This document shows positions 44,396-47,894 of a DNA stretch of 64,000 nucleotides, piece by piece. Within the stretch, counting starts at the first letter, position 1, and the number at the start of each line of letters is the position of its first letter. The notes below the pieces were generated by a model. It saw only the letters and a list, made by a program, of their open reading frames with translations, searched no databases and was not told the DNA's origin. The translations under genes were made by a program, and so were the position numbers. Source of the DNA: Chthoniobacterales bacterium (GTDB lineage Bacteria; Verrucomicrobiota; Verrucomicrobiia; Chthoniobacterales; JACTMZ01); contig VEQL01000009.1 of the NCBI GenBank assembly GCA_018883245.1, positions 1-64,000 on the forward strand. The letters are read 5' to 3'.

Positions 44396-45010
44396 ATGTC
44401 CGATATCTCACCCCAACTCGTCCGTGAACTCCGTGAAAAAACCAACGCGGGTATGATGGATTGCAAACGCGCTCTGGCAGAAGCCGGCGGCGATTTGGCC
44501 AAGGCCGAGGATCTCCTCCGGGCCAAGGGCATCGCTTCCGCGGGGAAGAAGGCATCGCGCAGCGCCAAGGAGGGCATCGTCGCCTCCTACATCCACTTGC
44601 AGGGCAAGGTCGGCGTGTTGGTCGAAGTCAATTGCGAGACTGACTTCGTCGCCAAGAACGAAAACTTCCGCGAATTCGTCAAGGACATCACGCTTCACAT
44701 CGCCGCCGCCAATCCGACCTGCGTCTCCCGCGAGCAAGTCGATGCGGTCGAGATCGAGCGCGAGCGCGCTATCTACCGCCAGCAGGTGGAGGGAAAGCCG
44801 GCAAACATCGTCGATAAGATTGTCGAGGGCAAAGTGGAAAAATTCTACGGCAGTATTTGCCTGATGGAGCAGCCTTTCATCAAGAACCCCGACATCACCA
44901 TCGCCGACCTCGTGAAGTCGAAGATCTCGGAGCTGGGTGAAAACATCGTGATCCGTCGCTTCACCCGTTACATGGTGGGTGAAGGCTTGCAGGAGGAAGC
45001 GGGAGCTTGA
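44396..45010 (+). CDS. tsf: Elongation factor Ts, 204 aa, short form
   Basis: An N-terminal UBA-like domain (LVRELREKTNAGMMDCKRAL) and the LVEVNCETDFVAKNENF motif identify EF-Ts, which recharges EF-Tu. The protein is about 204 residues, short relative to the 280-residue form but complete; such short forms are known. The C-terminus MEQPFIKNPDITIADLV is normal. Confidence 0.95.
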   Translation: MSDISPQLVRELREKTNAGMMDCKRALAEAGGDLAKAEDLLRAKGIASAGKKASRSAKEGIVASYIHLQGKVGVLVEVNCETDFVAKNENFREFVKDITLHIAAANPTCVSREQVDAVEIERERAIYRQQVEGKPANIVDKIVEGKVEKFYGSICLMEQPFIKNPDITIADLVKSKISELGENIVIRRFTRYMVGEGLQEEAGA

Positions 45011-45030
45011 ATCGCCCGATCGGAGATTTG

Positions 45031-46263
45031 TTAGAGACTCTTCCTGAGGACTTCATTCAACTGCGGGTAGGTTAAGAACCCGCGCACTGAATCCGTGCGC
45101 GGCCCAGAAGCGAAGACAAGCGAGTCGCCGGCGACAGGCGCGGGGCGTTCAGTTGGCGATGCCACCACTTCTGCCGTTGTTGAACCCTCCTTTGTTTGGG
45201 TCCGGCTCGGTCCGGTTGCCCATGACAAAGCGGGAATGCCAGCAGCGCTCGTTCCAAGCACCGCAATCCCCCTGTCCGGGGCGAAAGAGAAACCGTTGAG
45301 CTGAAGTCCCCCGGAATTGGCCAAGCCGGCAACCATAACCAACGCATCTTCACCGGCGTATTGAAGCGCGGCCGCCACCGCCTCATCGAGTGCTCCAATC
45401 TCCCGGAGCAGGGTCTCGCCACGCCCCAAATCCGCGGCTCTGCCGGACAAACCGGCATTGACCACCAGGAAGTAGCCCTTGCGGTTGTATTGCAGGAGTC
45501 CGATGGCCCGTGAAACAAGGTCGGCCAAGCGCGGTTGGCTGGCGTAGCGAGGCTGGTCTTCGACGAAGGCGAGATCACCGTCGGAGAACACACCGAAGAC
45601 TTGGGGACTGCGCCACCCGGGAGTGTTTTCCAGCTCGGCCCGGGTTCGGACGATATCGAATCCGCGCTGCCGCATGTCGAGCAGAAGATCGCGACCATCC
45701 TTTCGCGTTCCGCCTTGTTCGGCCGGGGCCAGTTGCGAAGCGCCTCCGCCCAACATCACATCCATCGGCGCCTCGTCCACCAATTGCACTGCCAAAGCCG
45801 TTGTATCGCTTGTGTCCGTCGCGTGTGCGTAGAAAGCGGCCGGAGCAGGATCGGTGAGCGGCGTGTTAGAGACCAGGCCGGTGGCCCGCCCTTGCCGCCG
45901 GGCAAGCGAGAGAAGCGACTCTAGGGATTGGCCCTCGGGACTAAGTCCCAAGGCACCGCGGTTGACCTCCTGCCCTGTGGCGAGCGCGGTCGCCGCCGCG
46001 GCGCTGTCCGCCACCGCATAATCGCGTGAGCGCGGGGTCACGAGAGCGACGTGCGGCATCGATTCCAATCCGTAGCGGAAACCGGACCCGCCGGTGAAGA
46101 TGCGTCCCGCGGCCAACTGCGACGGCGAGAGATTGTCGGCGACAAAAAGAACCACGGCGAACGGCCTTTGCACGACCCACTCGCGGTAAATCAGCACGCC
46201 GAGACCGAGGAAAGCGAAGATACAGGTCAGAAAAATGATTTTGTTCCGGATTTTGGTCGTCAT
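45031..46263 (-). CDS. Alkaline-phosphatase-like protein lacking most metal ligands, 410 aa
   Basis: A membrane anchor (about 8-26) precedes an alkaline phosphatase fold: VLFVADN (D43), VADSAAAATALATG with nucleophile S87, and APMDVMLGGGASQLAP. At the zinc-binding positions, however, the usual VEGxxIDxxxH block reads VVNAGLSGRAA (267-277). The TADHE block reads VAGLANSGG (311-319), and no HTG block follows. So the ligands equal to E. coli E322, D327, H331, D369, H370 and H412 are missing. It is probably catalytically inactive or altered. The start at 46263 is favoured over an earlier ATG. Confidence 0.75.
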   Translation of the reverse strand: MTTKIRNKIIFLTCIFAFLGLGVLIYREWVVQRPFAVVLFVADNLSPSQLAAGRIFTGGSGFRYGLESMPHVALVTPRSRDYAVADSAAAATALATGQEVNRGALGLSPEGQSLESLLSLARRQGRATGLVSNTPLTDPAPAAFYAHATDTSDTTALAVQLVDEAPMDVMLGGGASQLAPAEQGGTRKDGRDLLLDMRQRGFDIVRTRAELENTPGWRSPQVFGVFSDGDLAFVEDQPRYASQPRLADLVSRAIGLLQYNRKGYFLVVNAGLSGRAADLGRGETLLREIGALDEAVAAALQYAGEDALVMVAGLANSGGLQLNGFSFAPDRGIAVLGTSAAGIPALSWATGPSRTQTKEGSTTAEVVASPTERPAPVAGDSLVFASGPRTDSVRGFLTYPQLNEVLRKSL

Positions 46264-46352
46264 AAATCGAGCAAACCCGAAAGGTCGGAGACACGGAAGC
46301 CGAAAAGGGAACATCCTTGGAGTGAGGCGGTAAAAGCCGGTAGCTTCTACTT

Positions 46353-47894
46353 ATGGGACGGACCATTTGGATGCTCTGGGATCAGCTCGGGCCGGACAAT
46401 GCGGCCTTTCTCGGTGCGCGGCGGGCGGATGACGTTGTTTTATTCATCGAGAGTGCTCCGGCTCTCCGCAGGTTGAAGTATCACAAGCAAAGGCTCGTCC
46501 TTCTGCTCGCCGCGCAGCGACATCGGGCGGAAGAGTTGCAAAAGGATGGATGGAAAGTGGACTACCATGAGCTGACCGCAGCAACGGATTGGAAGTCGGC
46601 GCTCGCGGACCACATGCGGAAACATCGGCCTCGCGAAATTATGCTCGCAGAGCCGAACAATTTCGACGAGCAGCAGGCCGCAACCTCGCTGTGCAAGAAA
46701 TTTCCGATCCGGATCCTTCCCACCAAGCAGTTTCTTGTGCCGCGCGAAGATTTTGCAAACTGGGCACGCGGCAAGAAGTCCCTGCTCATGGAGTCGCACT
46801 ACCGGCGCGTGCGGTCGGAGTTCGGGTTTCTGATGCAACCTGACGGAAAGCCGGTTGGAGGGCAGTGGAATTTCGACGAGGAGAATAGAAAAACTTTCCG
46901 CGATTGGGTGAAGGGGGGACGTCCAGTGGCGCAGCTGCAGGAGATCGAACCGGACAAATTGACCCGCAATGTGATGGCGCTTGTGGAAAAGGCATTTCCC
47001 GACCATCCCGGGACAACAGCCGGGTTTTGGCTTCCAGTGGATCGGCACTCTTCCTTGCGCTGGTTGGATTCGTTCATCGACGCCCGTCTTGCGGGTTTCG
47101 GTCCTTGGGAGGACCTCATGGTCGAAGGGCAGTCGCAATTGTTCCATTCGGTGATCTCGCCCATGATAAATCTCGGCCTGCTCACCCCACGCGAATGCAT
47201 AGAAAAGGCCGTTTCGGCCTTTGACGCCGGAAGAGCGCCGCTCAGTAGCGTGGAGGGTTTCGTTCGGCAGATCGCCGGCTGGCGTGAATTCGTGAACGGT
47301 GTGTATTGGCTTAAGATGCCCGGCTATACGGAGGTCAACGGGCTGTCTGCGGAAAGGGCGTTGCCGGACTTTTTCTACACGGGGGAAACTGAACTCAACT
47401 GCCTGCGCCAATGCCTCCGTCAGGTTATCGACAGCGGCTTCAATCACCACATCCAAAGACTGATGGTGTTGGGCAACTTTCTGCTGATTGCAGGAGTCCG
47501 TCCGCAGGAGGCACTGCGCTGGTTTCTTGAAATGTATGTTGATGCGCACGACTGGGTCATGGCAGCGAATGTCTTGGGCATGGTGCTGCATGCCGACGGT
47601 GGCTTCATGGCCACCAAGCCCTATGCAGCGGGTTCCGGCTATATTTCCCGCATGAGCAATTACTGCGCTGGATGCCGGTTCAAGCCCGCGGAGAAGACCG
47701 GGCCGGACGCGTGCCCTTTCAACTATCTCTACTGGGATTTCTTCGCGCGGCACCGCGCCGTCTTGTCGCGCAACCCGCGGGTTGCCATGGCCATCAGGAC
47801 CCTCGACAAAAAGAGCGCTCGCGAGCGGGCGGCCATATCGGAGTCGGCCGTGCGGTTTCTGGAAAAGCGTGCCCCGCTGCATCGCGCAGTTTAA
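46353..47894 (+). CDS. FeS-type bacterial photolyase/cryptochrome, 513 aa
   Basis: The N-terminal photolyase-related domain starts TIWMLWDQLGPDN. The FAD-binding domain follows (MVLGNFLLIAGVRPQEALRW, MVLHADGGFMATKPYAAGSG). Cysteines in LNCLRQC and in NYCAGCRF ... DACPFNYLYWDFF fit the four ligands of the 4Fe-4S cluster in the FeS-BCP family. Members repair (6-4) photoproducts or act as light sensors. The gene diverges from the phosphatase-like gene with 89 bases between. Confidence 0.9.
   Translation: MGRTIWMLWDQLGPDNAAFLGARRADDVVLFIESAPALRRLKYHKQRLVLLLAAQRHRAEELQKDGWKVDYHELTAATDWKSALADHMRKHRPREIMLAEPNNFDEQQAATSLCKKFPIRILPTKQFLVPREDFANWARGKKSLLMESHYRRVRSEFGFLMQPDGKPVGGQWNFDEENRKTFRDWVKGGRPVAQLQEIEPDKLTRNVMALVEKAFPDHPGTTAGFWLPVDRHSSLRWLDSFIDARLAGFGPWEDLMVEGQSQLFHSVISPMINLGLLTPRECIEKAVSAFDAGRAPLSSVEGFVRQIAGWREFVNGVYWLKMPGYTEVNGLSAERALPDFFYTGETELNCLRQCLRQVIDSGFNHHIQRLMVLGNFLLIAGVRPQEALRWFLEMYVDAHDWVMAANVLGMVLHADGGFMATKPYAAGSGYISRMSNYCAGCRFKPAEKTGPDACPFNYLYWDFFARHRAVLSRNPRVAMAIRTLDKKSARERAAISESAVRFLEKRAPLHRAV

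Follow-up and report, generated by a model that had tools for sequence, protein, structure and literature searches.

Positions 45031-46263 of the window (the whole 64,000-nt stretch of DNA that was analysed) carry, on the minus strand, a gene for a 410-aa protein that we designate P0001 and annotate as a pseudo-alkaline-phosphatase, on the basis of its open reading frame and a match to the alkaline phosphatase family PF00245 (E = 4.1e-51). The first-pass annotation had placed the gene correctly, as its ATG at position 46263 is in register with the start codons of its relatives in the alignment. The gene is convergent with rpsB and tsf, both on the plus strand, and divergent from a gene for a deoxyribodipyrimidine photolyase-related protein (DPRP; PF04244, 3.8e-60) at 46353-47894 on the plus strand, the start of which lies 89 bases away. 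Given these orientations, the P0001 gene probably has its own transcript; a scan of 44900-46500 for promoters and terminators found nothing. The tsf gene (44396-45010, plus strand) encodes an EF-Ts of 204 aa, short for a bacterial EF-Ts, and a gap of 20 bases separates its end from that of the P0001 gene.

Predicted fold and active site

Searching P0001 against Pfam-A returned a single family, PF00245, with a score of 174.7 bits that lies above the Pfam cut-off of 24.4 bits, and in searches of NCBIfam and Pfam P0001 and its relatives in the family were matched by alkaline phosphatase models only. The 56 distinct sequences of solved structures that match P0001 are likewise all phosphatases (alkaline phosphatases, with one row labelled phosphatase). 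An AlphaFold2 model built on a 33-sequence alignment (pLDDT 82, pTM 0.82) places a helix at residues 3-30 and a folded domain from residue 35 to 410 (codons 45034..46161, minus strand), and the predicted fold is that of an alkaline phosphatase: it aligns with human ALPL over 346 residues (VIA-align Z 46.4, rmsd 1.9 Å), can be superposed on some 340 residues of E. coli PhoA and matches solved structures in Foldseek with an E value of 1.7e-26. A model of L103, a 391-aa protein from a distant branch of the family, has a helix at residues 6-32 and a similar order of elements (Z 44.7, 348 residues, 2.5 Å).

Active-site positions were mapped by aligning P0001 and its relatives to PhoA. As zinc ligands we used D51, D327, H331, D369, H370 and H412, of which D327, H331 and H412 bind one zinc and D51, D369 and H370 the other. 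Only one of the six is left in P0001, the equivalent of D51 (D43; 46135..46137, minus strand; all codons below are on the same strand). Between N269 and D278 (45430..45459), the equivalents of E322, D327, K328 and H331 read N269, G274, R275 and D278; the D369-H370 pair has become L314-A315 (45319..45324) and H412 has become P376 (45136..45138). D101 and the nucleophile S102 are retained as D86 and S87 (46003..46008), and D153 as D138. The phosphate-binding R166 is replaced by T151 and T155 by A140, and the Mg site formed by D51, T155 and E322 thus reads D43, A140 and N269. An alkaline phosphatase fold without its zinc site, with the Ser nucleophile and the first Asp in place, is what had been proposed from the sequence alone; the PF00245 match, the replacement of five of six zinc ligands in the PhoA alignment, and the presence of S87 and D43 all agree with that proposal. 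The description of the replacements as small and neutral holds only in part, for the ligands are indeed replaced but H331 has become Asp and D369 Leu, and the losses of R166 and T155 are additional to those described.

A family of deficient proteins

We sorted 186 proteins of at least 300 aa by the ligand columns 327, 331, 369, 370 and 412 and by their score to the family profile; they came from 191 ORFs, with the pieces of L024 (see below) and ORFs under 300 aa left out. The result was 30 proteins with a complete site, 144 deficient proteins from Verrucomicrobiota including P0001, and 12 of a second type represented by the paralogue L002. A protein counted as deficient if its site was incomplete and its score to the family profile exceeded 190 bits; all 12 rows that fell short of this score are of the L002 type. 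The ordinary enzymes are from Verrucomicrobiota and are mostly the best-scoring matches to the family profile rather than a random sample, and 30/30 retain D51, D101, S102, T155, R166, E322 and the full set of zinc ligands. None of the 144 deficient members has more than two of the six zinc ligands (four of the rows are gapped in at least one ligand column): D327 is kept in two, H331 in three, D369 in 43, H370 in 16 and H412 in one. Relatives with the same loss, which the first-pass annotation had suggested looking for, thus exist in number. Alignment with PhoA does not recover the missing ligands, and since the flanking motifs do align, the predicted fold superposes on PhoA and 144 members share the loss, the absence of ligands in P0001 is due neither to chance nor to misalignment. 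The Ser nucleophile, by contrast, fails as a cue for the family, being Ser in only 25/144 members and in two of the eight read in the window's genus.

The family is widespread. P0001 was matched in 45 of 57 close genomes (its own included), with only weaker matches at 26-33% identity in G021, G049 and G054. Across the order, a family match at 1e-80 or better was found in 169/213 genomes, 96/112 good assemblies and 34/45 genera; two 0.9-Mb genomes of the order had no family match. Within the class, 108/384 genomes have a match at 1e-57, some of which are ordinary enzymes (e.g. L094 and L095). A contig scan with the single P0001 sequence, which reaches close relatives only, returned five loci, all from Verrucomicrobia, Candidatus Udaeobacter or Spartobacteria. 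In another genome of the window's genus (G010, contig C33), the gene at L024 is broken into several frames with in-frame stops, which may mean that the gene was lost recently or that the assembly is faulty, and two members of the genus with assemblies that are 88% and 65% complete had no match to P0001.

The helix predicted at the N-terminus of P0001 is a candidate signal anchor (codons of residues 3-30, 46174..46257, minus strand), as indicated by the model, by a hydropathy peak of 2.28 at residue 8 and by conservation, R6, F18 and V30 being conserved across the clade. With start codons chosen by script, an N-terminal 19-residue window with hydropathy of at least 1.6 is present in 144/144 deficient members against 14/30 ordinary enzymes, and a cleavage-like motif, as defined by a crude pattern, follows the hydrophobic stretch in 28/144 against 19/30. 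In the model the fold begins about five residues past the helix, which would hold the domain near the membrane surface; the basic N-terminal tail and the ancestry of the protein lead us to infer that it lies outside, on the periplasmic side. A second feature typical of the family is found in residues 323-370 (45154..45297, minus strand), a stretch of low model confidence (pLDDT < 50) between the equivalents of D369 and H412: it contains a WxxGP motif (W348-P352) that is shared by 137/144 members and by 8/30 ordinary enzymes.

Phylogeny, selection and conservation

In a first tree of 111 rows, from which the L024 fragments and the contig-end copy L010 were left out, 79 of 80 deficient rows fell on one side of a branch with an SH-aLRT support of 99, the eightieth being L002. 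The separation does not depend on the site itself: with 14 site columns dropped, 144/144 deficient proteins fell on one side (FastTree SH-like support 99), and in a subset tree with the same columns dropped (43 of the 144 deficient proteins and 22 of 31 ordinary ones) the branch had a bootstrap of 100 and an SH-aLRT of 97, the deficient split being recovered in 100% of 200 bootstrap trees. Because the deficient proteins form one clade without the ligand columns, a single early loss of the zinc site, in some ancestor inside the class, is probable and is the simplest reading of trees that are unrooted.

The genes have been maintained since. In 16 close pairs dN/dS was 0.03-0.28, with dS above 1 in several pairs, and two pairs of ordinary enzymes gave 0.06 and 0.08; the pseudo-copy gene is under purifying selection. 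A decaying pseudogene, or an artefact of annotation or assembly, is a very improbable explanation of the locus, suggested by the broken L024 copy and by the two incomplete genus assemblies without a match but opposed by full-length open frames across the order and in parts of the class, by the single clade and by the conserved anchor; for the family as a whole it is refuted by the dN/dS values.

What selection has preserved appears to be chiefly the scaffold. Ranked by variability within the deficient clade, S102 and R166 lie at the 83rd percentile, H331 at the 86th and H370 at the 94th, with K328 within the range of the 83rd to the 94th and D327, D153, H412 and D369 at the 67th-79th. In the ordinary enzymes entropy is zero at S102, R166 and all metal-ligand columns. 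Residues that are conserved and typical of the clade include R6, F18, R126, Y264, G304, G351 and P352, the first two in or beside the membrane helix.

These figures bear on the suggestion, made in the first-pass annotation, that the protein might be an enzyme with a new chemistry, namely a metal-free or Mg-only hydrolase or transferase using D86 and a rebuilt pocket. Several columns would suit such an enzyme: the D101 equivalent is present in 141/144 members and lies at the 4th percentile of variability, an acid occupies position 322 in 125/144 and position 51 in 119/144, and both acids occur together with T155, as a Mg-type triad, in 78/144, with the D51, T155 and E322 columns at the 33rd-43rd percentile. 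A residual single Mg-type site may therefore exist in relatives that carry the triad, and the near-invariant D101 equivalent could have a role beyond structure. However, P0001 is not among the 78, having neither E322 nor T155, and one would expect the residues of a catalytic site to be invariant, like those shared by 16/16 complete sequences of the L002 type, whereas here S102, R166, H331, H370 and H412 lie at the 78th-94th percentile. Since most positions that once served catalysis now belong to the more variable part of the alignment, we disfavour new chemistry at the old site and regard it as unlikely.

Positions 51 and 369, which share one zinc in PhoA, are D-D in 30/30 ordinary enzymes and in none of the 144 deficient proteins, where the pairs are instead E-D (42), D-K (37), D-R (16), P-P (13), N-N (8), E-L (6), E-N (5), D-S (4), D-L (3) and six rarer types. 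By APC-corrected mutual information this pair ranks second of 63,190, and other pairs near the site rank high (327-367 at 8, 50-326 at 13), as do pairs elsewhere in the alignment. A tree-corrected sign test of 51-369 was non-significant, with too few independent pairs and none opposite (e.g. 2 same, 0 opposite and 5 undecided, or 3 same and 0 opposite). The covariation likely reflects lineage-specific repacking of the empty zinc site.

The second paralogue and other phosphatases

The window's genome encodes two PF00245 proteins, P0001 and L002, both with an incomplete site; it also has one PhoD-type match, and a search of it for PhoX gave no match. L002 lies outside the window, on contig C26 of the same genome (1396-2718, plus strand). 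It has Asn, Ser and Asp in place of the three His ligands but keeps D51, S102, R166, E322, D327 and D369, and the set D51, S102, E153, R166, E322, D327, N331, D369, S370 and D412 is identical in all 16 complete sequences of this type, whose sources are the window's order and two further family codes within the phylum. Matches to L002 at 1e-60 were found in 7/288 genomes of the phylum, and some copies have a lipobox-like N-terminus. From its residues L002 looks like an active enzyme with a changed, all-oxygen metal site. Both L002 and P0001 are PF00245 proteins that lack the His ligands, but the altered set of L002 is invariant, in contrast to the drifting site of the P0001 family; at the signature positions E322, D327, N331, D369, S370, D412 and R166, P0001 itself reads N, G, D, L, A, P and T.

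PhoA-type enzymes are dimers, and a protein of the same fold could conceivably serve as a regulatory or structural subunit paired with an active alkaline phosphatase of its own family. Pseudo- and complete-site copies do coexist in G012 (L031 and L114) and in G037 (L022 and L120), and a third genome, G483, has a complete-site copy (L119) together with a family match. Against this, 25 of the 42 genomes with a pseudo-copy (of 57 searched, the window's own included) carry it as their sole PF00245 protein, 12 have besides it just one that is of the L002 type by its place, and five have a further PF00245 protein; this count includes a fragment with an unscored site (the G001 copy), a truncated copy (G004) and two pseudo-copies represented by matches only (G046 and G052). 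We consider such a subunit quite improbable in general, and for P0001 a partnership with an active PhoA of the same genome was dropped, as that genome has no complete-site copy.

Gene neighbourhood

No neighbour recurs through the whole class. In a set of 79 loci, gpmI adjoins the pseudo-copy divergently in 19 of the 56 from the order, and of the 23 deep-branch loci 18 have ksgA/rsmA (identified by a motif in its sequence) directly downstream in the same orientation (L043, L096, L099-L104, L106-L109, L111, L112, L115, L118, L121 and L122), with a gap of no more than about 50 nt in 17; the counts are minimum values, as many loci have 1.5 kb of flank or less. The gap is often a few bases, which suggests that the pseudo-copy and ksgA are co-transcribed in the deep branch. 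At a nineteenth deep-branch locus, L044, ksgA is on the other strand. Neither gpmI nor ksgA is found beside the window's copy. Conversely, a tblastn search of all 144 loci found tsf and rpsB beside no copy other than that of the window, a piece of the DPRP gene near the genus copies L005 and L009, and an MscS-like gene near another genus copy, L004, and with at least 1 kb on both sides in only 80/144 loci such absences are weak.

The neighbours identified are housekeeping genes and do not constitute a phosphate-starvation setting, which weighs against a role in sensing phosphate or a phospho-metabolite, whereby the emptied pocket would bind a phosphorylated ligand. The alkaline phosphatase scaffold of active relatives does offer a phosphate-binding pocket, a point in favour of sensing, but R166 is Arg in just 3/144 deficient members and the pocket residues vary, and we rate this role as doubtful. 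Gene neighbours across the class pointed to no binding partner or ligand.

Discussion

Here we describe an old family of proteins that is homologous to an enzyme family, has lost essential residues across relatives and is kept by selection, which are the features of a pseudoenzyme. P0001 probably has no phosphatase activity, and we consider it quite probable that it is an old, metal-independent, membrane-anchored pseudophosphatase with a binding or scaffold role on the outside of the inner membrane. Among the first suggestions for this gene had been a pseudoenzyme, or a binding protein, that is tethered to the membrane, and the loss of ligands in 144 members, their single clade, the purifying selection and the hydrophobic N-terminus in 144/144 all speak for it.

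We propose that a PhoA-type alkaline phosphatase in an ancestor within the class would have lost its zinc ligands, most simply once; in the present proteins a membrane anchor stands where a cleavable signal is found in many ordinary relatives. Purifying selection has kept the anchored protein, its alkaline phosphatase domain most likely non-catalytic on the periplasmic face, where the preserved scaffold and the conserved membrane helix may bind a partner or ligand and so contribute to the structure or assembly of the envelope. More tentatively, the family could be a core envelope component of the class derived from an emptied two-zinc enzyme, the metal having been removed once, the side chains repacked by lineage (E-D, D-K or D-R, N-N, P-P, D-S) and the product serving as a membrane scaffold for a complex specific to Verrucomicrobiota; we would put this fuller reading forward as a possibility on the less likely side.

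On a practical level, users should be aware that counting PF00245 proteins as a measure of phosphate-mining capacity would wrongly include pseudo-copies, because Pfam and NCBIfam match the family only with alkaline phosphatase models, and in the 25 genomes noted above the pseudo-copy is the sole PF00245 protein. This matters in a phylum that one report describes as abundant in soil yet understudied (PMC12714770), and for which the family marks a conserved membrane protein. More broadly, the family is a natural record of a bimetal site being dismantled while its fold stays under selection. A literature search, with most subscription journals and bioRxiv preprints outside its reach, found no recognisable paper on an alkaline phosphatase-fold pseudoenzyme or on this family, which is weak evidence of absence. 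The interest of the family lies in its depth, as an old, widely inherited and selected, probably dead alkaline phosphatase that profiles still name as an enzyme.

Comparison with known systems defines how far the family has departed from its relatives. E. coli PhoA shares with P0001 its sequence family, predicted fold and order of motifs, but P0001 has lost five of six zinc ligands together with R166, T155 and E322, and its Ser is unconserved in the clade; the P0001 family also differs in having an anchor mostly without a clear cleavage motif and a poorly ordered WxxGP stretch between the equivalents of D369 and H412. The magnesium ligands of alkaline phosphatase are D51, T155 and E322, and the SPAP enzyme of Sphingomonas uses a Thr nucleophile and has no third metal (PMC3145672). 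SPAP resembles P0001 in retaining the fold without the Mg site or the active-site Arg, yet it keeps its bimetal zinc core and is an active enzyme, whereas the zinc core of P0001 is gone (PMC3145672). Engineered active-site mutants of PhoA keep all zinc ligands, which the P0001 family does not; removal of E322 alone, with zinc still bound, is reported to cost about 10^5-fold in activity, and combinations much more (PMC4438272). Because that single removal is so costly, the natural losses in P0001 predict no useful activity of the PhoA kind. A functional parallel may be offered by pseudoenzymes such as the iRhoms which, although from an unrelated family and unrelated organisms, are reported to have kept a catalytic fold for binding and regulation after the loss of catalytic residues, as P0001 may have done.
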